A stretch of 64,000 nucleotides of DNA from a virus, in the IMG/VR virus record IMGVR_UViG_3300046787_000345, positions 1-64,000 of that record, one strand, 5' to 3'. Shown in pieces: positions 33,829 to 50,077 of the stretch. The notes under the pieces were generated by a model. That model was given only the letters and a program-made list of their open reading frames with translations. It did not search any database and had not been told where the DNA came from. How positions within the stretch are numbered: position 1 is the first letter of the stretch; the number at the start of each line of letters is the position of its first letter. The position numbers were made by a program, and so were the translations under genes.

Positions 33829-35451
<1,623 letters not shown>

Positions 35452-35554: not shown

Positions 35555-38500
35555 TTATCTACCAAATGTATATCTAATACCTAATTGTGCACTCCATACA
35601 TCAAATACTGATGAGTTGTACTGATAGGTATCTCTAGCTAAGATAGTAGAACCATCAGTTAATCTTTGAGTTGCTAATCTATATGATGGAACATTGTTTG
35701 CATCTCTACTTACAAAGTTCAACAATTGAGGAGCAGTTGCTCTTTGAGAAACACCGAATTGGTTATCAACTAAGTTACCAAAGTTTAAGATATCTGCTCT
35801 GATTTGGAATGAATTTCTCTTTCCACCAATCTTAACAAAGATATCTTGTGCTACTGATAAATCAAATCTATGTAAGTAAGGTAACAAACCACCATTTCTT
35901 TCAGCGTATTGACCTCTACGAGTTTTTAAGTAATCATCTTGGTCAATGAACTTATCAAATGCTGCTTGTTGTTCAGCTTCGGTATAAGTTCTTCCACCTG
36001 CAGTTAATGGTACGAATCTAATATCTGAACCTTTATTTGGAACGAAGATTAAATCGTTATTGTTTACTCTATCACCATTTAAATCACCTGCTGCAATATA
36101 AGAGAATGGATTACCTTGTTGTCCTACATATCCTAATGTAAATGTAGTTGCTCCACCATAGTTTCCGCCATATTCAATTCTATAACCTAATAAACCTACG
36201 AATCTATTCTTAACAAACGCATCTGCAAATGATAATCCTAAATCGTTATTACCATTAACTGATAATGCTGATTGCCAACTACCACTAGCGATTGAACCTG
36301 CACTCATATAATCTTTTGAGTTAGCAGTTGTCCAAGCGATTGAACCCCAAAATCCTTTTTGAACTGGTTTTTCTAATTTTAATGTCAATGATTCGTGGAA
36401 TGCACCATCTCTATTCGTAAGAACTGCTGCTCTACTTACATTGTTATTTACTCTTACAGTTGCATCACTTCCACCGAAACGAGGTCTATTATCTACACCA
36501 CCCAAAGTTCCAACAGGATTTCTTAGGTTAGCTTCGTAGTAATGAACTGCGTTAAGTGTTTGATTGTAAAGATATTCAGCACTTGCTATCAATCCGAAGA
36601 ATGGTAACTTTTGGTCTACTGCCAAATTAGTTTTCCATACCTGTGGGAATTTATAGTTAGGGTCTGTCAATGCTAAATCAAATGTAGATGGTAAAGTTGG
36701 AGTTGATGGGATAAAGTATTTGTTAGGGTCAGCAGTAAATCCATATTGTGCTGCTGCTGCACCACTTACATCAATAAATCCTGTCAACACCCCATTGTTA
36801 CCAATTTGGTTAGATAAGAATACATAAGGAGGTCTACCCGTGAATACACCAGTACCACCTCTAAATTGTGTTTTGCTTTCACCTTTTAAATTATAGTTGA
36901 AACCAACACGTGGTTCAAATAAAACTTGTGTTTTTGGCATTAAACCAGTATTCCATTTTTCTCCATTTGCAAATGTCATTGCAGATACTGCTTTGTTTTC
37001 TAACGCAGTATTATCAAATCCAATAATGTTTGCTCTAACACCAAACGTTAATTTCAAATCTTCAGTTGCATCATACTCATCTTGTAAGTATAAATCTAAT
37101 CTATTTGACCTTAAAGTTTGTAATGGTTCAATTGCTCCTGGTAATGCCGAATAACGGAATTGGAAACGAGCAGGTGCGAATGTAGACGGTCTACCACCAT
37201 TTGCTAATGATTGATTAGCTGCAGTATAAAAATCATTCAAACTATTGAAGATATAAACACCATTTGATGCAGGGAAGAATAAGTTATTAGATTCATAACT
37301 TTGAAAATTGAAACCACCTACTAATGTATGTTTGTTCAAATATTTTGTTAAGTTATTTGTTACGTTAAATGTAGAATAATCTAACTTATTTCCCGGAGTG
37401 AATGGGTCAAATCCTACTGATGTTAATGTAGTAGAACCTTGTAAGATATCAATCGTTGGAAACATTTGAGACATATAACCTCTATTTTCAATTTGTTTAT
37501 CATAAGAAACGATTAAGTTATTATGTAATGTATTTGAAAACTTTGAGTTTAATTCCAATACTGCTGAACGAGTATTATCCTGAATAGTATAGCCACTATT
37601 TTGGAAACTCATTGCATTGATGTTTTGTGTTCTATTACCGAAACCTGCAGATTGTGAATTTGATATACCGATTTGTGCCTCAGAATCATGATAAACGTAA
37701 CGTGCAGTTAATTTATTGTTTGCATTGATATTCCAGTCAACACGAACTAAAAATTTGTTAGATGTGTTTGTGTTAGAATATCCTTCAAATGGACCGGTTT
37801 CGTAGTTGAACTTATCTTTCATAAATTTAGAAAGGTCAGTCAATTGTTGGAAAGTTGGTCTACTCACTTGTGAACCCGTTAAAGGAGAACCTGATGAAAT
37901 CCAAGTTGTACCTGGTTCAGTTCTTTCGATGCCTTCGTAGTTACCAAAAATGAATAATTTGTTCTTAATGATTGGTGCACCTAAACGGAAACCTTGCACT
38001 CTTTCATCAAATTTAGATGGAGTAATAGTTGTTCCTCTTGCGTTATTACCAATGTAAGTAGAACTATTATTTCGTTGTGTTGTATATACCGAACCTTCAA
38101 CTTCGTTTGTACCACTTCTCGTTACTGCGTTGATACCTGCTCCGGTGAAACCAGATTGACGAATATCAAAAGGTGCAATATTAACTTGTAATTGGTCAAT
38201 CGCATCTAATGAAATAGCACTTGCTCCAGTTCTACCACCCGCTTGTGCAGATGAACCTAAACCGAAGTTGTTATTAAATTGAGAACCATCGATTGTGAAG
38301 TTATTCAAACGAGAATCTTGTGCTCCAAATGAGTTACCATTACCGAATGGATTGTATTTTGTAATACCATCGATAGTTCTAGCACCCACAATTGGGATAG
38401 TTTGTAATTCTCTACGAGAAAATTGTTGAGATGCACCGGTTCTTTCTCTTGAAATAATATTATTTCTTCCGGCTGTTACAACTACCTCTGATAATGTAGT

Positions 38501-38830
38501 TGTTCCATCAACTAAAATGAAATTAACGTTTGTAGTAATACCCAATTGAGTATTTACATCTTTAATTTCATCTTTTTTGTACCCTACATAAGTAGCGTGT
38601 AATACATATGGTCCACCTACTCTTGTTGCAGGTAGTACATAAGTACCATTTTTGTTGGTTACAGTGTTGTACTGCGTACCTGTCGGTGTATGTACTGCGT
38701 GAATCGTAGCACCTACCAACACTTCATTTTTCTCGTTCTTCACAACACCAGAAATTGAGGAAGTAGTAATCTGACTAAATCCAAAAAACGTGGTCATTGC
38801 AAAAACTAACGATAAAATCAGTTTTTTCAT
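35555..38830 (-). CDS. TonB-dependent outer-membrane receptor (Oar-like)
   Basis: 1091 residues, complete. Signal peptide 1-20 (FFGFSQ). A CarboxypepD_reg-like domain spans ~23-108 (SISGVVKNEKNEVLVGATI). A TonB-box-like TTLSEVVVTAG lies at 111-121. The plug spans ~125-250 (NNFTIDGSQFNN, then AGINAVTRSG). A ~22-strand barrel runs to LGIRYTFGR. In Bacteroidota such proteins import glycans or other ligands through TonB-ExbB-ExbD. Here it is flanked by phage replication genes and has its own terminator. Roles could be receptor masking, superinfection exclusion or nutrient uptake. Base composition looks like its neighbours. Confidence 0.93.
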   Translation of the reverse strand: MKKLILSLVFAMTTFFGFSQITTSSISGVVKNEKNEVLVGATIHAVHTPTGTQYNTVTNKNGTYVLPATRVGGPYVLHATYVGYKKDEIKDVNTQLGITTNVNFILVDGTTTLSEVVVTAGRNNIISRERTGASQQFSRRELQTIPIVGARTIDGITKYNPFGNGNSFGAQDSRLNNFTIDGSQFNNNFGLGSSAQAGGRTGASAISLDAIDQLQVNIAPFDIRQSGFTGAGINAVTRSGTNEVEGSVYTTQRNNSSTYIGNNARGTTITPSKFDERVQGFRLGAPIIKNKLFIFGNYEGIERTEPGTTWISSGSPLTGSQVSRPTFQQLTDLSKFMKDKFNYETGPFEGYSNTNTSNKFLVRVDWNINANNKLTARYVYHDSEAQIGISNSQSAGFGNRTQNINAMSFQNSGYTIQDNTRSAVLELNSKFSNTLHNNLIVSYDKQIENRGYMSQMFPTIDILQGSTTLTSVGFDPFTPGNKLDYSTFNVTNNLTKYLNKHTLVGGFNFQSYESNNLFFPASNGVYIFNSLNDFYTAANQSLANGGRPSTFAPARFQFRYSALPGAIEPLQTLRSNRLDLYLQDEYDATEDLKLTFGVRANIIGFDNTALENKAVSAMTFANGEKWNTGLMPKTQVLFEPRVGFNYNLKGESKTQFRGGTGVFTGRPPYVFLSNQIGNNGVLTGFIDVSGAAAAQYGFTADPNKYFIPSTPTLPSTFDLALTDPNYKFPQVWKTNLAVDQKLPFFGLIASAEYLYNQTLNAVHYYEANLRNPVGTLGGVDNRPRFGGSDATVRVNNNVSRAAVLTNRDGAFHESLTLKLEKPVQKGFWGSIAWTTANSKDYMSAGSIASGSWQSALSVNGNNDLGLSFADAFVKNRFVGLLGYRIEYGGNYGGATTFTLGYVGQQGNPFSYIAAGDLNGDRVNNNDLIFVPNKGSDIRFVPLTAGGRTYTEAEQQAAFDKFIDQDDYLKTRRGQYAERNGGLLPYLHRFDLSVAQDIFVKIGGKRNSFQIRADILNFGNLVDNQFGVSQRATAPQLLNFVSRDANNVPSYRLATQRLTDGSTILARDTYQYNSSVFDVWSAQLGIRYTFGR

Positions 38831-39204: not shown

Positions 39205-40551
39205 TTATTTAAGAATGAACTTTCTAAAATAGTCCAATTCATTATAAATCCAATCTAATATTATTTTTTTGTTTTCTTTAATTTTAGGTAAGTTTTCCAA
39301 ATAGATTCGTTTAGCATCTTCTAATGAAATCTTTTCTAATGCTTCAATTACATAATCCATTTGTTTAATTGGGTCTTCTGTTTCTAAGAATATAGGATTT
39401 ATACCCAACTCTTTGATAAATGTATGACCACCTAATTTTTCAAACTCTCTATAAAATTTATTGGCACCTACTGAAATAAACAACTTTTCAAAAAATACCC
39501 CGTGATATGTTTTTTCAGACCAGAAATCATATAATTTATTAAATAGTATATGAGTTTCACCTACAACTTCAATATAACTTTTATTATAATCTTTGTTTAC
39601 AATATTTTCAGTCGAATATTCAAATCGTTTATGTTCACCTAATGGGTCGTGAATTTGATTATAGTGAGATATTGGTTTATAAAATTCTTTATTCCAATAT
39701 TCAAATACTTCTTGTTTAATTAGATTAGTACCATCGGTGTTTGGATTATTGTTTCTTACTTGCATTGAATATTCATCAAAGAAGAATTTGTTCATAGTTA
39801 CATATCCGTTATCAACTAAACCATTTTCTATGATTTTGTTAATGAAATATAATCTATGATAACGAGGTTTACCTCCTAACATTCCAAATACTTTTTCTCT
39901 ATCTTCAATTGGTTCTACTAACCCATCTAACCAATTATAGAAAGTTTCTTCGCCATTTAAAATTTGATGCCAATTATTTGGAGATACTTCAAACGCAAGA
40001 ATATCATAAATGTAATTCCAAAGAGAATTAAACGTATTTACTTTTGTATTTTTCAATCCTTCAAATAATGGATAATCGGCCATTTTGATGTACTCAAACT
40101 CATAATCATTTATACATCCAACATAGTGGTCTGCTTCATAATCTAATGGTTCGAAATATGATAATCCAAACGCAATTCTACAATTACGTTCTTTGTAAAC
40201 TTTTTCAAGTTGTTTTACAAATCCGATGCCAAATACTCTAAATAATTTAACCCACACTCCTACAAACTGCCATCTATCTAAAATGAAAGTTGTATTTTGA
40301 GGTGGGTTAATAAAAATAGAGTGTTGATTAGTATCGAAGAAATTATAGTTAGTAAGTTCATGTCCTTCTTTGTTACGAGTAGTCCATATAATATTATTTT
40401 CATCAAACTCACTATATAATTTAATCTGATACTCATTGTTATCATGAGTAAGATTCAAAACTTTATATTCCTTAGTAACTTCAGTTTGTTTAAACTTAGA
40501 TTTACCAAATAGGGAAAATAATTGAGGTTCTCTTGATACTATATTAATCAT
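39205..40551 (-). CDS. Hypothetical protein with a glycosyltransferase-like C-terminal motif
   Basis: 448 residues. The C-terminal portion (WSEKTYHGVFFEKLFISVGA, then FEKLGGHTFIKELGI and EDPIKQMDYVIEALEKI) resembles the donor-binding part of GT-B/fucosyltransferase-like proteins common in marine phages. The N-terminal half (PPQNTTFILDRWQFVGVWVK, YFEPLDYEADHYVG) is unfamiliar. It is 2 bases from the methyltransferase gene upstream. If a glycosyltransferase, it might sugar-modify DNA or a virion protein. Confidence 0.4.
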   Translation of the reverse strand: MINIVSREPQLFSLFGKSKFKQTEVTKEYKVLNLTHDNNEYQIKLYSEFDENNIIWTTRNKEGHELTNYNFFDTNQHSIFINPPQNTTFILDRWQFVGVWVKLFRVFGIGFVKQLEKVYKERNCRIAFGLSYFEPLDYEADHYVGCINDYEFEYIKMADYPLFEGLKNTKVNTFNSLWNYIYDILAFEVSPNNWHQILNGEETFYNWLDGLVEPIEDREKVFGMLGGKPRYHRLYFINKIIENGLVDNGYVTMNKFFFDEYSMQVRNNNPNTDGTNLIKQEVFEYWNKEFYKPISHYNQIHDPLGEHKRFEYSTENIVNKDYNKSYIEVVGETHILFNKLYDFWSEKTYHGVFFEKLFISVGANKFYREFEKLGGHTFIKELGINPIFLETEDPIKQMDYVIEALEKISLEDAKRIYLENLPKIKENKKIILDWIYNELDYFRKFILK

Positions 40552-40553
40552 AA

Positions 40554-42191
40554 TTATGGTTTATAGAAAACAAATATTGGTTCAAACTTATAAGCTTTAC
40601 CATCATGTTTTACTGCGTTTTTAATACCAGTTTTAGTTGGGTCTAATCCAACCATTCGAGTCATTAACATCTTTAATTTACCTTTGTATTGACATCCTAA
40701 TTCATTAAGAATATCAATGGAATCTTTTTCTAAAGCATAATAGGTATCTTTACCAATTTTAATATCTGCAATGTTCCATAGAATGTACCTATCATTCTTA
40801 GTATACTCATAGATAGTAGTTAAAGTAGGACGTAGGAAATTATCTCTCCAATCATCGTACTCACCATATGCTCTGAATGATTGATTCTCATCTTGTGAAT
40901 ATTGTTCTCTATTAAAGTATGGAGGTGATGTAAATGATAAATCCAACTTACCTTTGTATTTTTGGAACTTAGGATTATGTTGAATTAATTCAGAACCATC
41001 TTGAAACAATTCGTATGTATTACCTTGCTTTTCTACATCAAAGAATTTAGTAAATGTTTCAGAGAAATCATCCACACAATTATCATTGTAGAATTTAGCT
41101 GCATATTCATAACGAGATATCCCTAATTCTTCAATAAAGTTATCAGGATTTGGGTCAGTACCAATGTAATGGGTTTTCTTACGAGATGCCATTGCACCTA
41201 AAATTCTACCACCCCATCCACTTGATGAATCATAAATATGAAGAGGTTCATCTTGTTCAATATGTGATGTAAAATGTTCGTAAATCCACTTTGCAGTTAA
41301 TGCAGGAAAGTTTACTGCAGGTTGTCCACAACTTAAACGGAATACTTGTAGGATTTTTGGAAATATACCAACTGTCTTATCGTACCAACGAATCAAATAA
41401 TAAAACTTTTTAGTTGTTTTACCATCTGCAAGTGTCATACTATCTTCAATTACCTTAACATTTGATAATTGAGTTGGATTTAACCAACCATTATCTACAC
41501 ATCCTTGTAATTGTTCAGCAGTTAAATATAAGTTACCAAACCCAATATATTGTTCATTGATAGTTCCGTAATTATCAATAGTATCTTCTTTTACTTTTGC
41601 AATTACGATATCCAAATCAGAATGTTTACCTACAAAGATTTTACCTTCATGTACTTTCTGAATAAACTCTACACCAGTTTCACCATCCCAAAACTCATTC
41701 TCATCTTTTTTATTTACGATGGAACGTGACCACGAATACATAGAATCTCTTTTAACTGCTCTACGCATAATTTTCACAAACAATTCTTCTAAGTTAGGGT
41801 CAGAGAAATGGTCATAAATCGATAATCCACCATCAGCAGTTTTTCCGATTGAAATTTTAGTTTTCAACATTGTAGGGAAGAACTGATTAATAGCAGATGC
41901 ATCTTTGTTAAAATTCTGAATAATACCTAATGATTCGTCATCTCCTGTTAAATCTTTTTGTAGGAAATCACAATCGTTTCCCTTTAATTTTTTAAATGAT
42001 TCTATGATACCATCCTTATCTTTACCGATAACAGGAGGTACACCATCTTCATCCCATTGCTTTGTAACTTCTTTACGAAGTAACTTAGCCCAATTGATGA
42101 ACTCATCATCAGTCATTTGTAGTAACTGATGATAAGTTCTATTGGATTGGAATTCAGAAAATTTTGAACGTTCGTAGTAGTATTTACTCAT
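40554..42191 (-). CDS. SPPY-type DNA methyltransferase-like protein
   Basis: 545 residues. The C-terminal half has IYDSSSGWGGRILGAMA (SAM-binding motif I, split), HYIGTDPNPDNF and LDLSFTSPPYFNREQYS (catalytic motif IV SPPY), followed by RYILWNIADIK. SPPY with this order is typical of amino-methylating (N4-cytosine or N6-adenine) enzymes. The first ~290 residues are an extra domain with no motif I can name. A second protein of the same kind lies at 48.6 kb. It is probably part of a DNA-modification set. Confidence 0.7.
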   Translation of the reverse strand: MSKYYYERSKFSEFQSNRTYHQLLQMTDDEFINWAKLLRKEVTKQWDEDGVPPVIGKDKDGIIESFKKLKGNDCDFLQKDLTGDDESLGIIQNFNKDASAINQFFPTMLKTKISIGKTADGGLSIYDHFSDPNLEELFVKIMRRAVKRDSMYSWSRSIVNKKDENEFWDGETGVEFIQKVHEGKIFVGKHSDLDIVIAKVKEDTIDNYGTINEQYIGFGNLYLTAEQLQGCVDNGWLNPTQLSNVKVIEDSMTLADGKTTKKFYYLIRWYDKTVGIFPKILQVFRLSCGQPAVNFPALTAKWIYEHFTSHIEQDEPLHIYDSSSGWGGRILGAMASRKKTHYIGTDPNPDNFIEELGISRYEYAAKFYNDNCVDDFSETFTKFFDVEKQGNTYELFQDGSELIQHNPKFQKYKGKLDLSFTSPPYFNREQYSQDENQSFRAYGEYDDWRDNFLRPTLTTIYEYTKNDRYILWNIADIKIGKDTYYALEKDSIDILNELGCQYKGKLKMLMTRMVGLDPTKTGIKNAVKHDGKAYKFEPIFVFYKP

Positions 42192-42194
42192 ATA

Positions 42195-42908
42195 TTAACT
42201 AGCGATTTCTACTAAGTAGTAATCAGATGTATATTCACCCGCTTCAAAATGGATGTGTGATAAACCTTGTGATGAAATGTTTAAAGTAGCATCTTTTGCT
42301 TCTTTGTTAGCAACTAAAATTTCTTTTAAGTATGTTGCTGAGAATGAGATTGGTTCTACATCACCATCAATTTCACCATCTACATCAATAGAAATTCGGT
42401 TAGTATTGATATTAGAATGTCCTAATACGATTTGTGCCTTACCATTCTTTACAACGAATGTAAAGTTGTTTTCATCCGTTAATGCACTCTTAGCACGAAT
42501 GAATTTAGTAATAAAGTTTTCATCCAATTTGATTTTGATATTGAAATCTGGTAATTTCTTCAAATCAGGTACGTTAGGAATAACCGAAAGGTCTGCTAAC
42601 ATATAGTTTACTGAAGTTGAACCATCTTTGAATTTCAAAGAAACTGCTTTACCATCTACATCAGAAATTTCAAAATCAACTGATTCACCTAATACACCTA
42701 ACATCTTTGTTAGTTTGGATGTATCATATACACCGAATGTTGTATCGTTAAAATTGAACTCAGTCATTGTTACTTTACCCAATACCGATTTATCATCAGA
42801 AATGAATGAAGTTGTTAATGAATTGTCTTTTGTTTCCCATTTTACTGATTCTACCAAACCAGCAAGGTTGTACTTTTGTACGAAACGATTTAATTTACCT
42901 TTTTCCAT
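42195..42908 (-). CDS. 45: Sliding clamp (T4 gp45-like)
   Basis: 237 residues. The repeated beta-beta-alpha layout and segments such as TFGVYDTSKLTKMLGVLG, KFKDGSTSVNYMLADLS and SDYYLVEIAS fit gp45/PCNA-like clamps, which form trimers around DNA. Synteny with the polymerase gene 73 bases upstream and the clamp loader supports this. A TTTGG/TATCTTTG promoter lies within 70 bases. Confidence 0.85.
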   Translation of the reverse strand: MEKGKLNRFVQKYNLAGLVESVKWETKDNSLTTSFISDDKSVLGKVTMTEFNFNDTTFGVYDTSKLTKMLGVLGESVDFEISDVDGKAVSLKFKDGSTSVNYMLADLSVIPNVPDLKKLPDFNIKIKLDENFITKFIRAKSALTDENNFTFVVKNGKAQIVLGHSNINTNRISIDVDGEIDGDVEPISFSATYLKEILVANKEAKDATLNISSQGLSHIHFEAGEYTSDYYLVEIAS

Positions 42909-42942
42909 TTGTTTGTTTTTTATTATTTAATTTATTGTTACA

Positions 42943-42974
42943 CAAAGATACGAATAATTTTTGAATTATCCAAA
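42943..42974 (-). promoter_or_regulatory. Bacteroidota-type promoter before the sliding-clamp gene
   Basis: TTTG (42971-42974) and TATCTTTG (42943-42950) on the minus strand, 20 bases apart, just before the polymerase gene ends. Confidence 0.8.
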
Positions 42975-42980
42975 TTTATT

Positions 42981-45488
42981 TTAAAATGAGAAGAATTTCT
43001 CTGCTGTTTTTTGTTCACTCATCACTTCACCCCAATCTAAGGCGTTATAAAAATCTTGTAATTTACCCTTTAATTCGGCTTCGAAGATTCTATTATGGTC
43101 TATGTAGGTTGAAATGAATTTTGTTATTTCTTCGGGGTCATCATAACCTGTAAACCCTAACCCATCGATTCCTAATGGATTGTTTTTAAGATATACCCAT
43201 TTAATTTTATCACCATCTTTCATAGGTGAATATTTGAATGGTGCATTGAAATGTTTCAAACAATCATTATATAGAATTGCTGCTTTAACGTGAGCAGGAA
43301 CACCTTTCTCCATTTGGAAAAGTTGTCTTTTCTTTGGTAGATATTTTGATAAGTTTTTTACTGCAGAGTTTTTAGCAATTTCAGTAATTGGTCTATCTAC
43401 CATACTCTTTTTAAATGCGAGAACAAATGCTGTAATTTCTTCTTCTGGTTTACTTCGTAGGATATCAATTAAGACAGTTCCCATACACTCCTGAAATGCT
43501 TTTGGAAATGATGAACGTTTAACGTCTAATCCCTTAACATCTAATTTATCTACCGCAATACCATTGTTTGATATAATCCATTGAGCATAACGTTTCTTTG
43601 CAATCCAAATACCTGCTCTAGCAACGTATTCCTTTTTAATTTCCAATCGGTGTTTTTGAACGTTAAATAGTTTATCAGAAAGTATATCATAGAATTTATT
43701 CAGATAATCTTGCATTTCACCTGCAATACCATCCACCAATTGAGCAACTTCACTATCTGGCATTTCTTTCCAATTTGGATGACGAAAATCTAAAAGTGGA
43801 ACTGCTGAAAAGAATACTGAATCCGTATCGATATAAATGTTTGAATCTACATCGGTTGTACCTAACTCTTTATTGTATTTGATGTTCCCCATATTCGCCG
43901 AGTTTTTAATAACCGTCTGACCAGTAGTCGTAACCGCCTCAGCATTATCAACATCATAAAACCGAAAGGCAGGAAGACCAAGCACACCATAAAGAGAGTT
44001 AAGTAAGATTTTTTGAACCAACTGTCTTTTTCCGTAAAAGGCATATTTTTCTTTATCACCCTCCTGACCGTACTTCTTTTCCAATTTTCTAAATTCAACC
44101 CTTTCATTGAACCATATGTCTAATATTTCTGGAATACATCCTATTTTATCTTTACGATATAACACACCATTTGATGATATAGTTAAATCTGCTTCTTTAA
44201 TATATTTTTCTAAGTTATCACGTGAAATTCTATCATCACCCATTTGGTAATAATCAACTTCTTTTTTCATAAATGTTTGAACATCCCAATCCGAAATCTT
44301 AGCAACCTTAGTTTCTGGACTAATGTTCAAAGTCATAATGATTGATGGATATAGTGATGTTAAATCCAAATCATATACCCAGTCATATTTACCCACAATT
44401 GGGTCTTTTACATATGCACCGATAAACTTCTCCTCACCTGCTTCAGCCATAGCTGCGAGTTTCTCTTTTCTATCTGCAGGTTTATTTGGTGCAACCAATC
44501 CTTTACGTTTAAGGAAACATAGTAATGCACCCTCCAAATATTTCGATGAATAAACGAAATCTTCATATGGAACGTGACCTGCATGACAGATACCTCTACA
44601 TAAATCAATGAATTGTAATTTCTTATCTAATTCTACAACAATCTCAACGTCCACTAAGTTATACTCAATGAACTTTTCAATATCTTCGTTAAATAAATCA
44701 TCCAATGAACCTTGATACTCAATCTTACCTTTACCCAATTCAATTGTACCAATGGTATCCAAACGATAGTTAGGTAATTCGTTGTAGTTAAATTTCTTAT
44801 AAAGAGAAAGGTAATCTAAACAACTTACTCCAGCCAAAAACCATCTTTGACGATATGGTGAATAGAATGCTTGACCGATAGGTGATAATCTTTTTGCTTG
44901 GGATTCGCCTAAGATTCGTTTCATTCTATTGAATAGATAGGGAATATCGAAATTATCAATGTTCCAACCTGTTAAAATATCTGGTGCAATTCCTTCGTAT
45001 AACTCTAAGAACTTCATACACATATCTCTCTCATCTCTGAAAGGGATTACGATTGCCTTATCGGTTTTACGTTCAACCATTTGACCTTTCTTATCCATCA
45101 CCAATACCCAATATTGATTGGTTACACTATCTTGTAAACCAATCGCAGTAAGTTCGTTCTCTGCCTTTTCAGTATCAGGTAATCCACTCTCCATCTCCAC
45201 CTCAATATCGAAAGTCATTGTTACAATACCTTCGGATGGGATATCAGAATCGACATAAGTATCCACTAACACACGAGTTGTTTCTGGTACATCTGATTCG
45301 AATAAATTCGGGTCATCATTTTTGAATTTGTAAATTTTGGTTAATCGGTCACCATAGATGGAACGTGCTTCACCTCTCTCTGCCCTTTCATACGCATAAC
45401 GTGTGTATGGGAATGTTCTATAACCTAAATGGGAATCCCATAAATGTATTAGGTTTCTTTCTCTCTGATAGTATATATTCTTGTAAAT
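42981..45488 (-). CDS. 43: Family B DNA polymerase (T4 gp43-like), ATT start
   Basis: About 835 residues. The exonuclease has FDIEVE and NIDNFDIPYLF. Polymerase motif A is DLTSLYPSI, B KILLNSLYG and C YIDTDSVFF. Polymerase-like sequence continues upstream of the first GTG (45272): YKNIYYQRERNLIHLWD and SIYGDRLTKIYKFKNDDPN belong to the N-terminal domain. In this frame the first upstream stop is TAA at 45507-45509, and no ATG, GTG or TTG lies between it and the conserved region. The best start is ATT at 45486-45488, preceded by AAGG. A promoter lies at 45516-45547. Confidence 0.9.
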   Translation of the reverse strand: MYKNIYYQRERNLIHLWDSHLGYRTFPYTRYAYERAERGEARSIYGDRLTKIYKFKNDDPNLFESDVPETTRVLVDTYVDSDIPSEGIVTMTFDIEVEMESGLPDTEKAENELTAIGLQDSVTNQYWVLVMDKKGQMVERKTDKAIVIPFRDERDMCMKFLELYEGIAPDILTGWNIDNFDIPYLFNRMKRILGESQAKRLSPIGQAFYSPYRQRWFLAGVSCLDYLSLYKKFNYNELPNYRLDTIGTIELGKGKIEYQGSLDDLFNEDIEKFIEYNLVDVEIVVELDKKLQFIDLCRGICHAGHVPYEDFVYSSKYLEGALLCFLKRKGLVAPNKPADRKEKLAAMAEAGEEKFIGAYVKDPIVGKYDWVYDLDLTSLYPSIIMTLNISPETKVAKISDWDVQTFMKKEVDYYQMGDDRISRDNLEKYIKEADLTISSNGVLYRKDKIGCIPEILDIWFNERVEFRKLEKKYGQEGDKEKYAFYGKRQLVQKILLNSLYGVLGLPAFRFYDVDNAEAVTTTGQTVIKNSANMGNIKYNKELGTTDVDSNIYIDTDSVFFSAVPLLDFRHPNWKEMPDSEVAQLVDGIAGEMQDYLNKFYDILSDKLFNVQKHRLEIKKEYVARAGIWIAKKRYAQWIISNNGIAVDKLDVKGLDVKRSSFPKAFQECMGTVLIDILRSKPEEEITAFVLAFKKSMVDRPITEIAKNSAVKNLSKYLPKKRQLFQMEKGVPAHVKAAILYNDCLKHFNAPFKYSPMKDGDKIKWVYLKNNPLGIDGLGFTGYDDPEEITKFISTYIDHNRIFEAELKGKLQDFYNALDWGEVMSEQKTAEKFFSF

Positions 45489-45515
45489 AACCTTAAAATT
45501 TAATTGTTAGTAATA

Positions 45516-45547
45516 CAAATATACGAAATAATTTCCGTATTTCCAAA
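45516..45547 (-). promoter_or_regulatory. Bacteroidota-type promoter before the DNA polymerase gene
   Basis: TTTG (45544-45547) and TATATTTG (45516-45523) on the minus strand, 20 bases apart. The transcript would begin about 20 bases before the proposed ATT start. Confidence 0.85.
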
Positions 45548-45555
45548 AGTTTTTC

Positions 45556-46395
45556 TTAAAACTTATAAATTCCACCAATATTCCAGAACAAAATAGTTCC
45601 TTCAATTTGGTCTATATTCTCTTCTAACCATTTCCATTGTTTTATATCCCAAAATTGGTTACAAGGGAATGGTGCTTCATATCCATCCAAACGATTTTCG
45701 AATAGATACTCTGATTTTCGTATGTTTAACGGAATTGGTATTCCACTCTTTTTTAGAGTTTTTTTGATTGAACTTTCAGATGATACACATGTTGTCCAAA
45801 TCTTTCTACTAACCGATGGGAAAAACTCTTTAAGTTCTTCTCTATAATATCCTCTAGCCAAACCAGATAAAGTTACTCCACTACCTGATGATACTACTAA
45901 ATTATCAAAATGTACGAATGGTTGAATTCTTTCTGCAAGATAATCTTTATAAAAATCGTGGTCAAAAGCGTAAGGTAACATTTGCCAACCATTTTCTCTT
46001 GCCTGACCTCTAAGTGAGTTGTACATAATCTGCATCATATTAGGTCTGATTGGATTCAAATGTACTTTTGGATACATTTCCTTAATCATTCCTAAATACT
46101 CTTGTGATATCTTTTTAGAATCAGGATGTGAAACATAAAATTCTATATCCAATTCTTCACATATTGCTGCAAGTGCCCAACCTGTCCAACTTCCATCTAC
46201 TGAAAGGTGGGTTAATGGTTTAGATTTATCAATATATTTTTTAACCAATTCATATAATGCTGCTACTTTTCCCCACGGCGGTAAAAGTGTACCATCACCC
46301 ATAAGGTCATCTCTTTTTACCCAAACTTCTCTACCTTTAATATGATAAAGTTCTAATGGAGTATCTTCATTTAAACCTTTTAATTTTAAATCCAT
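45556..46395 (-). CDS. PLP-dependent enzyme-like protein (tryptophan synthase beta/ACC deaminase fold)
   Basis: 279 residues. REVWVKRDDLMGDGTLLPPW followed by GKVAALYEL puts Lys43 where ACC deaminase and D-cysteine desulfhydrase carry their PLP lysine. GSWTGWALAAICEELD replaces the SNHTRQTA substrate loop, and LVVSSGSGVTLSGLARGYY is the Gly-rich phosphate-binding loop. It is shorter than the bacterial enzymes (~330) and the substrate loop differs, so the reaction may be new. It overlaps the asparagine-synthase-like gene by 10 bases. I infer amino-acid transfer in base modification. Confidence 0.65.
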   Translation of the reverse strand: MDLKLKGLNEDTPLELYHIKGREVWVKRDDLMGDGTLLPPWGKVAALYELVKKYIDKSKPLTHLSVDGSWTGWALAAICEELDIEFYVSHPDSKKISQEYLGMIKEMYPKVHLNPIRPNMMQIMYNSLRGQARENGWQMLPYAFDHDFYKDYLAERIQPFVHFDNLVVSSGSGVTLSGLARGYYREELKEFFPSVSRKIWTTCVSSESSIKKTLKKSGIPIPLNIRKSEYLFENRLDGYEAPFPCNQFWDIKQWKWLEENIDQIEGTILFWNIGGIYKF

Positions 46396-47891
46396 TTATA
46401 CAACCCTCCTGCGTTTGATATCAACTCACCTTTCATACTTCTATGTGAGAATCCATAAATTTTTTCAAAATTATCCCCAATCACATTAATCATCTTCTTT
46501 CTATTTTTGAAATTGATGATAGGGTCATTTAAAATAATATCTTCAATATATTGTTTAAAGTTTGTACCTTTTTGAAATGCTCTTTTCTCTTGGTCTAATA
46601 TTTCATCAGGTAACTTACCTCTAAATGCATTTGCTAATGGTAGTTTCCATTGGTTTCCTTTTGCCAAGTATTCATCAGTAAGATTTGTGGTATAGTTTAA
46701 AAATTCTCTATCAAAGAATGGACATCTTAATTCGATTGTACCATAATTCATAAAGATATTGTTACCTCTTAATAAATTACCATAGTATTGTTTTTCAAAT
46801 AATTTTTTACGAACATCACTCCAATCTGGTTTCTTACTGAACATACGGAAAGTTCCATATGAACCATATGATTCATCACTACCCTCACCACTAAATGCTA
46901 CTTTGATACCATCCTTTGCCATTTCTTCGGCAATAAAGGATTGTAAAATACCCACTTCCATTTGAACAGTTGATGGGTATTCGATTACTTTAATTGAATC
47001 TATAAATCTTTGTTTAATTATTTCCTCATCACGAGGTACGAATACTTCTATCAATTCTACACCTAAATATTTGGCACATACTCTTGCTTTTTGTAAATCC
47101 TTAGATTCTTGGTCAAATGCAATTGTATACGCTTTTAGATTGGGAATTCTTTGTGATAGTAAATATGTAATAACTGCCGAATCAATCCCTCCACTTAATG
47201 ATGTGGCAATTGGAACATCTGAAAGTAGACGTTTGTCAACTGCACTTTCTAATAACTTAAAAGTAGTTTCAGCAACTTCATCATGTGAATTAACTTCAGT
47301 AGGTTCGGATGCAAACTGAAAATAGTAATTTTCGTTTACTACAATTGTATCAGTATCCAAATCAATCTCAACTAATGAGTTTTTTGGTACAAATTTTATA
47401 TCAGATGTTTTATGTTGGGTAACAATTGATTTTATTTCACTTGCAATAATATATTTGTTTGTGTTGTAAATATACAATGGCAACTTACCCACCCAATCGC
47501 GTGATACTAATAATTTGTTATTATCAAAAATAACAAACGAAAACATACCCTCAAGTCGTTTCAGTTCATTTTCTTTATATAAGAATAGGATAATTTCTGA
47601 ATCGGAGTTCGATTTAAATGTATACCCTCGTTCTTCATATTCTTTACGAAGTTGTGGGTAATTCCATATCTCACCATTTACTACTAATTCTACACCATCA
47701 TATTCCATAGGTTGATTACCCAAAGGAGATGTATCGTTAATAGATAAACGATTATGTCCTAAAATGATATGCTTATCTCCATACTTAAATTCTTTGATAC
47801 CGCGGTTATCTCTACCACGATGTTCAATTGCTTCAAGCATATCGTTCACATCTTCTTTATTATACCCTATGGTTGCTACGATTCCACACAT
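46386..47891 (-). CDS. asnB: Asparagine-synthase-like glutamine amidotransferase
   Basis: 501 residues. Cys2 (MCGIV) is the class II glutaminase nucleophile, and HRGRD, LGHNRLSI and NGEIWNY complete that domain. The C-terminal domain has SLSGGIDSAV (PP-loop ATP pyrophosphatase) and FSGEGSDESYGSY. Asparagine synthetases amidate a carboxylate through an adenylate. The C-terminus is shorter than that of E. coli AsnB (~554). Placement with a TS-fold enzyme, a PLP-fold enzyme and methyltransferases suggests amidation of a nucleotide substituent rather than of free aspartate. Confidence 0.85.
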   Translation of the reverse strand: MCGIVATIGYNKEDVNDMLEAIEHRGRDNRGIKEFKYGDKHIILGHNRLSINDTSPLGNQPMEYDGVELVVNGEIWNYPQLRKEYEERGYTFKSNSDSEIILFLYKENELKRLEGMFSFVIFDNNKLLVSRDWVGKLPLYIYNTNKYIIASEIKSIVTQHKTSDIKFVPKNSLVEIDLDTDTIVVNENYYFQFASEPTEVNSHDEVAETTFKLLESAVDKRLLSDVPIATSLSGGIDSAVITYLLSQRIPNLKAYTIAFDQESKDLQKARVCAKYLGVELIEVFVPRDEEIIKQRFIDSIKVIEYPSTVQMEVGILQSFIAEEMAKDGIKVAFSGEGSDESYGSYGTFRMFSKKPDWSDVRKKLFEKQYYGNLLRGNNIFMNYGTIELRCPFFDREFLNYTTNLTDEYLAKGNQWKLPLANAFRGKLPDEILDQEKRAFQKGTNFKQYIEDIILNDPIINFKNRKKMINVIGDNFEKIYGFSHRSMKGELISNAGGLYKWI

Positions 47892-47892
47892 A

Positions 47893-48591
47893 TTATTTAT
47901 TTAATACTTCTAATAACTTATGAGTTTTTTTTGTTTCATCATTCATTTTACCGATATGACAAGAACATGCTAGAACTGATACTTTTTCTAATTCCATATC
48001 ACTTTCTTTAGCTAAGAATTTACCCATCTCAACTAATGCAGTATAATCTGCATAACCTGATTTAGATACTCTATTTGAACGAATAATTGATGTCAGATAA
48101 ATTTTACCATTACGAGGTTTGATATCAATTGCTAACATACAAGGTTGTGAATATGGATTTCTTGCATCTCTGCTTGGGTCAAAGATAATTAATTCACATC
48201 TCTTAACTGCTTTACCAGTCTTTAAGATTTTAATTACATTTTCTACCTGATTGAATGTTCCTTGCCATGCAACCATTCTACCCCAATATGAATCACTCCA
48301 TTTATCTTTAATAAATTTATATTCCAATCCTTCTTCTGCTGCAAAGAATGGACTATCTGAAACGTGTGGTTGTGGTTCTAAAAATGTTACTGTCTTTGCA
48401 TAATCAATTCTATCATCACCCATAATTTCTCTAAAATGTGGGTCAAACCAATCATCAGATTCAAACTTTGTGATTTCAGTCATCACATTTAGTTCTTCGG
48501 TTAAATCACCTACTTTTACTCCATTTGCAATAAGGTGTTTAGATACCTTTACCCATGCATCGCCGGGGGATGTTGCTTCTATTACTGTCAT
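47893..48591 (-). CDS. Thymidylate synthase-fold enzyme (dNMP methylase/hydroxymethylase-like)
   Basis: 232 residues. YWGRMVAWQGTFNQVENVI, then KRCELIIFDPSRDARNPYSQ and PCMLAIDIKPRNGKIYLTS, follow the thymidylate synthase order of Arg, Trp/Asp-Pro and catalytic Cys (Cys151 in QPCML), then IIRSNRVSKSGYADYTALVE for the substrate phosphate region. The family adds a one-carbon unit at C5 of dUMP or dCMP. The usual Q-R-S-D and GxPFN signatures are altered, so substrate or product may differ, for example hydroxymethylation. It lies between asnB and a methyltransferase gene. Confidence 0.68.
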   Translation of the reverse strand: MTVIEATSPGDAWVKVSKHLIANGVKVGDLTEELNVMTEITKFESDDWFDPHFREIMGDDRIDYAKTVTFLEPQPHVSDSPFFAAEEGLEYKFIKDKWSDSYWGRMVAWQGTFNQVENVIKILKTGKAVKRCELIIFDPSRDARNPYSQPCMLAIDIKPRNGKIYLTSIIRSNRVSKSGYADYTALVEMGKFLAKESDMELEKVSVLACSCHIGKMNDETKKTHKLLEVLNK

Positions 48592-48602
48592 ATGTGTTTA
48601 TT

Positions 48603-49835
48603 TTATAATTTACGCCAGACCCATACAGGTTCACCAAACGTTTTATCTTTTGCTTCTTCGTTCTTTTTCAATTCCTCTTCGGAATATCTTTCTTCATCAC
48701 CATCTATAATCATCCCTGCCCCTGCAGAACCCGGTCTTTTAGCCATTTCCATACCCAAACACCCCTCGTAGTGTGCACCGTCTAGAGTGGAAATAAAATC
48801 GTTCATAGGATTAGTGATTTCTTGTTGACCTTTACCATCACCTTTCGATGATGCATACACATCGGCAATGTTTATAGCCAAATATCCACCTTTAGCGATA
48901 GTAGGCCAAACATTAGCGATTGTCTTATGTAAAAAGTTTTTATTCCAATCATCAATTGTTTTATATCTAATCCAACTTTGAGTGTCATCATATGAATAAC
49001 GTTCTACGTTAAAATAAGGTGGTGAACTGAATACAATATCGAAGTATTCTTTATATTCACTCAAATCCAAATCTTCTGCTGGAGATTCATAGAATGTTGA
49101 TTTCTTTTCCGTTTCGAAGAACCCATTGTTCTTCTCATAGAAATCTGCTTGTTGTCTATAAATTGGATGATTTTCTTTACGAGGGTCAATACCTACATAA
49201 TGCTCACCATGCTCGGATGCATAAAATCCACATAATCTATCACCCCATCCTGCTGAAATATCTAATACGTTTTTTGCTTCTACAAAATCGTATAATACTT
49301 TAGCAACGTTTGGTTTAAATTGTGAACAAATGTATTTTCGTAGGGATAGACACGTTCGTAAAGTATTCTTACTAACCTCATCGAATTTTAATGTATACAT
49401 TCCACCCATAAGGGAGAACATAAAATCTGGATTATTCCAAGTACGATAAGGACCAGGTGAAACTGTGCCATCAACACTCCATCTATTTGCTTGTTGGAAA
49501 TAGTTTGATGCTGGATTACCTGTATTTATTCTACGAACAAATTGTTGTTTTCCTTGAAATGTTAGTGGGTATTTGGATTCGGTTGCTTTTCGAGGCACCC
49601 ATTCTCCTTCAGTAAATAATTCATGCCAACGAAATCCTTTTAGTTTAAGGTATTCTTTTCTGGCTTCTTCTTCAGTAATATCTGCATATGGAATTTCGTA
49701 TGTTGCTGCTACTTTTGCTAAAGATTCTTTTACATCTTCTCTATCAAAAGTTCTTTTAATATACTCCCATTCTTCATTACCGATAAAGAGATATGGTGTC
49801 ATACCATAAAACTTATCAAAATATTCTAAATACAT
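48603..49835 (-). CDS. SPPY-type DNA methyltransferase-like protein
   Basis: 410 residues. NVLDISAGWGDRLCGFYASE is SAM motif I, HYVGIDPRKENHP motif II and FDIVFSSPPYFNVERYSYDD the catalytic SPPY motif, followed by GGYLAINIADVY. The core is clearly related to the protein at 40.6-42.2 kb (SAGWGDR/SSGWGGR, SPPYFN). The C-terminal tail is acidic and includes EERYSEEELKKNEEAKD. It heads the operon that holds the TS-fold, AsnB-like and PLP-fold genes, under a TTTGG/TATCTTTG promoter. Confidence 0.72.
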   Translation of the reverse strand: MYLEYFDKFYGMTPYLFIGNEEWEYIKRTFDREDVKESLAKVAATYEIPYADITEEEARKEYLKLKGFRWHELFTEGEWVPRKATESKYPLTFQGKQQFVRRINTGNPASNYFQQANRWSVDGTVSPGPYRTWNNPDFMFSLMGGMYTLKFDEVSKNTLRTCLSLRKYICSQFKPNVAKVLYDFVEAKNVLDISAGWGDRLCGFYASEHGEHYVGIDPRKENHPIYRQQADFYEKNNGFFETEKKSTFYESPAEDLDLSEYKEYFDIVFSSPPYFNVERYSYDDTQSWIRYKTIDDWNKNFLHKTIANVWPTIAKGGYLAINIADVYASSKGDGKGQQEITNPMNDFISTLDGAHYEGCLGMEMAKRPGSAGAGMIIDGDEERYSEEELKKNEEAKDKTFGEPVWVWRKL

Positions 49836-49859: not shown

Positions 49860-49891
49860 CAAAGATACGAAAAATATTTCGTATTTCCAAA
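49860..49891 (-). promoter_or_regulatory. Bacteroidota-type promoter for the base-modification operon
   Basis: TTTG (49888-49891) and TATCTTTG (49860-49867) on the minus strand, 20 bases apart, 25 bases before the start at 49835. It overlaps the last bases of the HTH gene. Confidence 0.8.
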
Positions 49892-50077
49892 TTAAATGTG
49901 TGTCCAAGTGTGACGTTTTACGATTTCCTCAACATTCCATTTACTAACTTTAAAGTTTCTAGCGATAACGTTAGTAGAGAACCCTTGTTTAAAGAGTTCT
50001 CTAATTATCCTAACTTGTTCGTTTGTAAGTTTTGCTTTCGGATGATTTTCACCACACCTTTTATTTGATACACTCAT
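49892..50077 (-). CDS. Small helix-turn-helix protein
   Basis: 61 residues. KLTNEQVRIIRELFKQGFST followed by NVIARNFKVSKWNVEEIV is a resolvase/sigma-like HTH, and the end RHTWTHI resembles tails of HNH-associated HTH modules in phages (HPKAKLT start, then a HxxW end). It may be a regulator or the DNA-binding remnant of a homing endonuclease. It overlaps the thioredoxin gene by 17 bases. Confidence 0.6.
   Translation of the reverse strand: MSVSNKRCGENHPKAKLTNEQVRIIRELFKQGFSTNVIARNFKVSKWNVEEIVKRHTWTHI

Follow-up and report, generated by a model that had tools for sequence, protein, structure and literature searches.

The gene set and its enzymes

We analysed a window of 64,000 nucleotides (positions 1 to 64,000 of the 72,756-base virus record IMGVR_UViG_3300046787_000345 in IMG/VR, from a group of mostly large phages), where an original prediction, made from the sequence alone, had placed five genes in one base-modification pathway. 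All five reading frames proved open, on the - strand. The first gene, MT1 (48603..49835, 410 amino acids), encodes an SPPY amino-methyltransferase-like protein and is followed by genes for a thymidylate synthase (TS)-fold enzyme (47893..48591, 232 amino acids), an AsnB-like glutamine-dependent amide ligase (46386..47891, 501 amino acids) and a fold-type II pyridoxal phosphate (PLP) enzyme (45556..46395, 279 amino acids). As predicted, these four form one operon, with gaps of 11 bp (MT1-TS) and 1 bp (TS-AsnB), an overlap of 10 bp (AsnB-PLP) and a Bacteroidota-type promoter at 49860..49891 (- strand) that matches TTTGG-N15-TTCGTATMTTTG exactly. The fifth gene, MT2 (40554..42191, 545 amino acids), encodes a second SPPY methyltransferase-like protein and belongs to the operon of a probable sliding clamp. 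The set probably encodes a form of phage DNA hypermodification whose parts resemble three known systems; in agreement with the original prediction, a pathway with exactly this gene set was not described in the literature searched, which did not extend to Lee 2018/2022 and Iyer 2013.

The TS-fold enzyme matches PF00303 (E 4e-4) and, under the family's cut-off, TIGR03283 (E 2e-18). Its nucleophile, Cys151, aligns with Cys146 of ThyA as had been proposed, and Tyr102, Arg171, Ser172 and His212 correspond to ThyA Tyr94, Arg166, Ser167 and His207. The position of ThyA Asn177 is occupied by Asp182, as in T4 deoxycytidine monophosphate (dCMP) hydroxymethylase, and this residue is invariant in 27 sequences; in the TS superfamily Asp177 marks cytosine modification (MetaGPA, PMC8670742). 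The residues of the folate site are changed: Asp169 is replaced by Arg or Ala (Arg174 in the window) and Gly173 by Ser, the Glu58 region and Tyr209 are lost, and an invariant KSGYAD loop is present. The best Foldseek matches of the AlphaFold2 model (predicted local distance difference test, pLDDT, 90.7) were the phage HY126 dCMP hydroxylase AfhB (9iqu/9iqc) and MilA, and the family profile searched against the PDB matched MilA at 1e-7, 9iqc/9iqu at 9e-7 and ordinary TS at 1.6e-3 or worse. AfhB is likewise without the folate Asp, the title of entry 9iqc describes a riboflavin-dependent monooxygenase with dCMP and FAD, and 5-hodCMP synthase belongs to the TS superfamily (PMC13390438). A second, fully canonical ThyA is encoded by four large relatives (G001-G004), so that dTMP supply does not require the operon enzyme.

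From these residues and relatives, the TS-fold protein is predicted to functionalise C5 of a cytosine nucleotide, either dCMP or cytosine in DNA. The thymidine or deoxyuridine (dU) route implied by the original prediction was not supported, since the enzyme has the cytosine-selective Asp and groups with cytosine-nucleotide enzymes. The C5 one-carbon addition proposed there survives as one option; hydroxylation is another, given the cytosine-type Asp, the kinship with cytosine-nucleotide enzymes and the missing folate Asp, and the loss of the folate site may mean that the enzyme is a flavin-dependent hydroxylase or uses a new donor. In two contigs (L047:10001-12133 and L198:8001-10133) TS and AsnB share a single 710-amino-acid reading frame; we did not use this fusion as evidence, as the AsnB Cys2 is lost, further genes there are broken into pieces and the frame may be an error.

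The AsnB-like protein exceeds the cut-off of TIGR01536 (E 1.6e-87) and has the MCGI start with Cys2, SGGIDSA and SGEGSDE, motifs that its relatives keep. By motifs and cut-off it is a complete glutamine-dependent synthetase, and it adjoins TS in nearly all close relatives. The nearest precedent for an AsnB-type ligase working on DNA is CmoY, which is AsnB-like and ligates glycine to 5-carboxymethylcytosine in DNA; some CmoY relatives keep the glutaminase domain (PMC12783734).

The PLP enzyme matches PF00291 (E 9e-5) and PHROG 7093 (E 5e-24), and its AlphaFold2 model (pLDDT 94.8) has the fold of D-cysteine desulfhydrase and 1-aminocyclopropane-1-carboxylate deaminase. The proposed tie to thymidine-hypermodifying phages was borne out, the protein being a homologue of gp52 of phage M6, whose DNA holds the hypermodified thymidine 5-(2-aminoethyl)deoxyuridine, or 5-NedU (PMC6449724). 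Searched with phmmer against the window, gp52 found the PLP enzyme at E 5e-20. The Lys43 named beforehand is invariant in 41 sequences and aligns with the gp52 lysine, and both proteins have a C-terminal PFPCN...WKWL...FWNIG block. In the M6 cluster gp52 sits between gp51 and gp53. PLP decarboxylases reportedly finish such modifications, and gp52 would presumably be one. In one TS-less cassette an aspartyl/asparaginyl beta-hydroxylase-like protein (PF05118; L248:6872-8047) adjoins the PLP gene and might be yet another enzyme that installs the handle.

MT1 and MT2 are related, as had been proposed: they share 32% identity over a core of about 200 amino acids (E 1e-24) and PHROG 12517. MT1 has S-adenosylmethionine (SAM) motif I (DISAGWGDR), then SSPPYF, and SPPYF is present in 260 of the 270 reading frames of the family. 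SPPY is a motif of exocyclic-amine methyltransferases acting on N4 of cytosine or N6 of adenine. Relatives match PF01555 (N6_N4_Mtase) at 1.9e-5, under the cut-off, and at 5e-13; the two window proteins gave no Pfam match over cut-off, and searches with the methyltransferase sequences returned no usable match to solved structures. Relatives of MT1 adjoin TS or PLP in unrelated phages.

Recurrence of the cassette and exchange of its parts

Relatives of the TS-fold and PLP enzymes were taken from viral contigs and their neighbours labelled by protein comparison. Deduplication left 52 clusters, two of which, M6-type bacterial metagenome-assembled genome (MAG) contigs, were set aside. A profile search of genome contigs with the PLP alignment found only three M6-type contigs, and the M6-type cluster, including gp51, gp53, gp54 and gp55, recurs intact in MAG contigs L269-L271, a positive control of the search.

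Co-occurrence of the families across phages, set beforehand as the test of the prediction, holds in the 50 remaining cassettes. In 46 of them TS or PLP is accompanied by an amide ligase (contig ends truncate several of the others), and 41 have an SPPY methyltransferase no more than 6.5 kb away, with one more fused to a radical-SAM protein. The outcome named beforehand as a refutation, AsnB and PLP proteins that are plain metabolic enzymes occurring apart from the TS-fold and SPPY genes, was not observed. Gene orders vary among the cassettes, which come from unrelated uncultured phages. In the window clade the cassette is surrounded by NrdAB, thioredoxin, PolB and the clamp, a marine clade (L142-L150, L228-L232) has MT-TS-AsnB-PLP beside unrelated genes, and L151-L155, contigs of 149-375 kb, have MT-TS-ligase-PLP-MT. 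With such differing surroundings, simple shared ancestry of a single neighbourhood is an unlikely explanation of the association.

Further support comes from the exchange of single parts. In L031, L039, L042, L043, L045, L048 and L151-L155, a PP-loop ligase of about 300 amino acids without glutaminase takes the place of AsnB between TS and PLP. Another set of cassettes has no TS and combines a different AsnB (AsnB', 31-36% identity) with a D-2-hydroxyacid dehydrogenase (DH; PF02826, E 3e-14), in some cases in the order MT-PLP-DH-MT-AsnB'; TS and DH never occur together in any cassette. Along the PLP tree, a quick tree with some long branches, ligase type changes at least eight times (six forced by supported branches) and TS/DH five times. 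A radical-SAM family (PF04055, E 1e-12 to 2e-16) is inserted in L030 and L149, occurs without PLP in L157, L176, L193 and L194, and in L193 is fused to an N6_N4_Mtase domain. In-place exchange of this kind is expected of enzymes acting sequentially on one product. The module is thus very likely one co-inherited pathway, as originally proposed; less of that proposal stands for the methyltransferases, as MT2 lies in the separate clamp unit and SPPY methyltransferases are also found outside the module.

Run against 50,697 named phage records, the TS-fold query matched Gordonia, Enterococcus, Lactobacillus and Glutamicibacter phages, the PLP query matched Pseudomonas, Bordetella, Sphaerotilus and Stenotrophomonas phages, and the two had no record in common. 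Neither the radical-SAM enzyme nor the stand-alone ligase had a match in these records, and a whole-locus nucleotide search of named phages also found nothing. Contigs carrying relatives of the locus are up to 288 kb long in the close clade, and more distant ones reach 375 kb.

Neighbouring genes and transcription units

Two replication genes on the - strand separate MT2 from the operon. The family B DNA polymerase (PolB, 42981..45488; phrog_262, 1e-187) has 835 amino acids counted from an ATT start at 45488, which was placed by comparison with relatives; L008-L010, L047 and L062 have ATG, TTG, ATC or ATT there, so a rare initiation codon appears to recur for this replicative polymerase. The probable sliding clamp (42195..42908) has weak matches to PF02768 and phrog_947/12062 and is kept after PolB. 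Matches to TTTGG-N15-TTCGTATMTTTG on the - strand also lie upstream of PolB (45516..45547) and of the unit formed by the clamp, MT2 and the gene at 39205 (42943..42974). In all, the window holds 11 copies with at most two mismatches, 11 of 11 on the - strand, against 0.07 expected from shuffling, which by sequence points to a Bacteroidota host. A scan for sigma-70-type promoters found fewer sites in the window than in shuffles; this was the wrong class, and the Bacteroidota motif was used instead. Rfam and tRNA scans gave no match.

A small conserved helix-turn-helix-like reading frame (49892-50077; 61-73 amino acids) sits just upstream of the cassette in the majority of the window clade. At 35555-38830 is a gene for a 1091-amino-acid outer-membrane beta-barrel protein, TonB-receptor-like, with a carboxypeptidase-regulatory-like domain (PF25183, E 5e-47); it is kept in close relatives (79-92%) and has no match in G001, G003 and G007. 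The phage also encodes a GroEL-type chaperonin (33829-35448; PF00118, E 2e-77), found at varying places in relatives.

Proposed pathway and its alternatives

Hypermodification of a DNA base is the reading that fits best and is probably correct; the location of the cassette among replication genes counts for it. The Asp of the TS-fold enzyme, its nearness to MilA and AfhB, the missing folate residues and the additional ThyA argue for a cytosine rather than a thymidine pathway, and cytosine is overall the base we favour, with some reserve. On balance, we propose that the phage encodes a pathway for hypermodifying one pyrimidine of the viral DNA, most likely cytosine.

The analysis shows the gene set, its co-inheritance and exchange of parts, the homologies and the active-site residues; from these we infer the substrates, the product and DNA as the target, and the order of steps is a guess. 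Cys151 of the TS-fold enzyme would attack C6 of the cytosine ring, in dCMP or in DNA, and C5 would receive a handle, either hydroxymethyl or hydroxyl. The ligase, AsnB-like or of the stand-alone PP-loop type, would then activate a carboxylate with ATP and form an amide, with ammonia derived from glutamine where the glutaminase domain is present. The gp52-like PLP enzyme could remodel the attached amino-acid group, for instance by decarboxylation, joined or replaced in some phages by the radical-SAM enzyme, and an SPPY methyltransferase might finally alkylate the product or an exocyclic amine. Tentatively, this suggests a modular system with a TS-fold enzyme devoid of a folate site working on cytosine, a ligase and PLP or radical-SAM enzymes building an amide or amine group at C5, SPPY enzymes adding an alkyl group, and TS or DH front ends feeding a shared PLP step.

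Several observations weigh against this proposal. The TS step is not obligatory: DH stands in place of the TS-fold gene in about one third of the clusters, and nothing in G007 matches PF00303. AsnB lies over the cut-off for ordinary asparagine synthase, and beyond the catalytic core the TS alignment has only about 15-20% identity. Similar SPPY methyltransferases also occur in phages without other cassette genes and are thus frequent partners of the trio, not a hallmark. The records are metagenomic and mostly incomplete, and neither a dCTPase (PF08761) nor a T4-type deoxynucleoside monophosphate (dNMP) kinase (PF21448) was matched in the eight records G000-G007, which are possibly incomplete.

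The alternative that survives best, although it is unlikely, is that the trio produces a special donor of alkyl or amide groups, such as a modified SAM or a small molecule, which the SPPY methyltransferases transfer onto an exocyclic amine of cytosine or adenine. The frequency of SPPY genes near the trio, the one fusion to a radical-SAM protein and the exocyclic-amine motif speak for it, as does the swap of TS-AsnB for AsnB'-DH with PLP and MT staying, which suits a common transfer step downstream. The analogues would be CmoA supplying carboxy-SAM to CmoX, or a Mom-like carbamoylmethyl group. The CmoA-CmoX-CmoY system of Synechococcus phage S-B43 (PMC12783734) resembles the module in pairing an ATP-dependent AsnB-related amide ligase with a methyltransferase-like base enzyme, but is described without TS-fold or PLP partners and has SPPC where the module's methyltransferases have SPPYF. 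No TIGR00740 match to CmoA was found in the eight records, the E. coli control being positive, which rules out the CmoX/CmoY pathway; no SPPC C5-carboxymethyltransferase is present among the module's methyltransferases, elsewhere in the genomes none being searched for. A TS fold with its Cys and cytosine-type Asp, moreover, favours direct C5 chemistry on a cytosine nucleotide.

It is similarly unlikely that the genes act on free nucleotides, on a small molecule resembling nucleoside antibiotics or on RNA rather than on DNA, a view for which two observations speak: one of the closest relatives of the TS-fold enzyme is MilA, an enzyme of mildiomycin synthesis, and the pool enzymes are missing. 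T4 gp42, MilA and AfhB share the catalytic Cys, the Asp at 177 and the fold with the TS-fold enzyme, but identity is about 15-20% and the gene is not followed here by a glycosyltransferase gene. With T4 gp56 and gp1 giving no phmmer match either, T4-like replacement by 5-hydroxymethylcytosine (5hmC) is not supported: the pool enzymes that were not found disfavour complete replacement of deoxycytidine at the nucleotide level, leaving modification that is partial or follows replication, or a target other than DNA. Against the latter stand the PLP homologue from the base-modification cluster of M6, the partners resembling DNA methyltransferases and the location among polymerase, clamp, Nrd and helicase genes. 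A TS-superfamily gene with a decorating enzyme is also known from uncultured phages, in the 5hmC carbamoyltransferase system (MetaGPA, PMC8670742), but the decorating enzyme there is a TobZ-type carbamoyltransferase, in place of AsnB and PLP.

Ordinary auxiliary metabolism is improbable. It would have AsnB make asparagine, the PLP enzyme act as a D-cysteine desulfhydrase or threonine dehydratase, TS supply dTMP and the methyltransferases be plain DNA methylases, and the TIGR01536 score and the desulfhydrase-like fold speak for it. However, G001-G004 have a separate canonical ThyA, the TS-fold residues are changed, AsnB can be swapped for a ligase lacking glutaminase, and association and part exchange extend across the 50 clusters.

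Phage M6 shares with the module the homologous PLP enzyme, TS-superfamily and radical-SAM-type (gp53) enzymes in the cluster and a position near DNA polymerase. It differs in that its TS enzyme, gp58, has Asn177 whereas all aligned operon TS sequences have Asp, its stretch has no annotated AsnB or SPPY gene, and its radical-SAM family is not alike by phmmer. Its gp51, gp53, gp54 and gp55, which presumably cover kinase, glycine-transfer and radical-SAM roles, had no phmmer match in the window, G001, G003 and G007. Despite the gp52 homology, hypermodification of thymidine or dU as in M6 and ViI is very improbable, and the M6 pathway itself is ruled out, by the Asp at 177 and these missing proteins.

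If the cytosine hypermodification that we propose is correct, it would join TS-type handle formation, AsnB-type amide ligation and M6-type PLP remodelling, which are known only apart, in an exchangeable cassette spread across uncultured, mostly large phages. It would offer a testable case of the TS fold reused without folate and a source of new DNA-tailoring enzymes, with altered sensitivity to restriction and CRISPR predicted for the phages. Decorating cytosine with an amino-acid-derived group would then give phages a new means of disguising their genomes.

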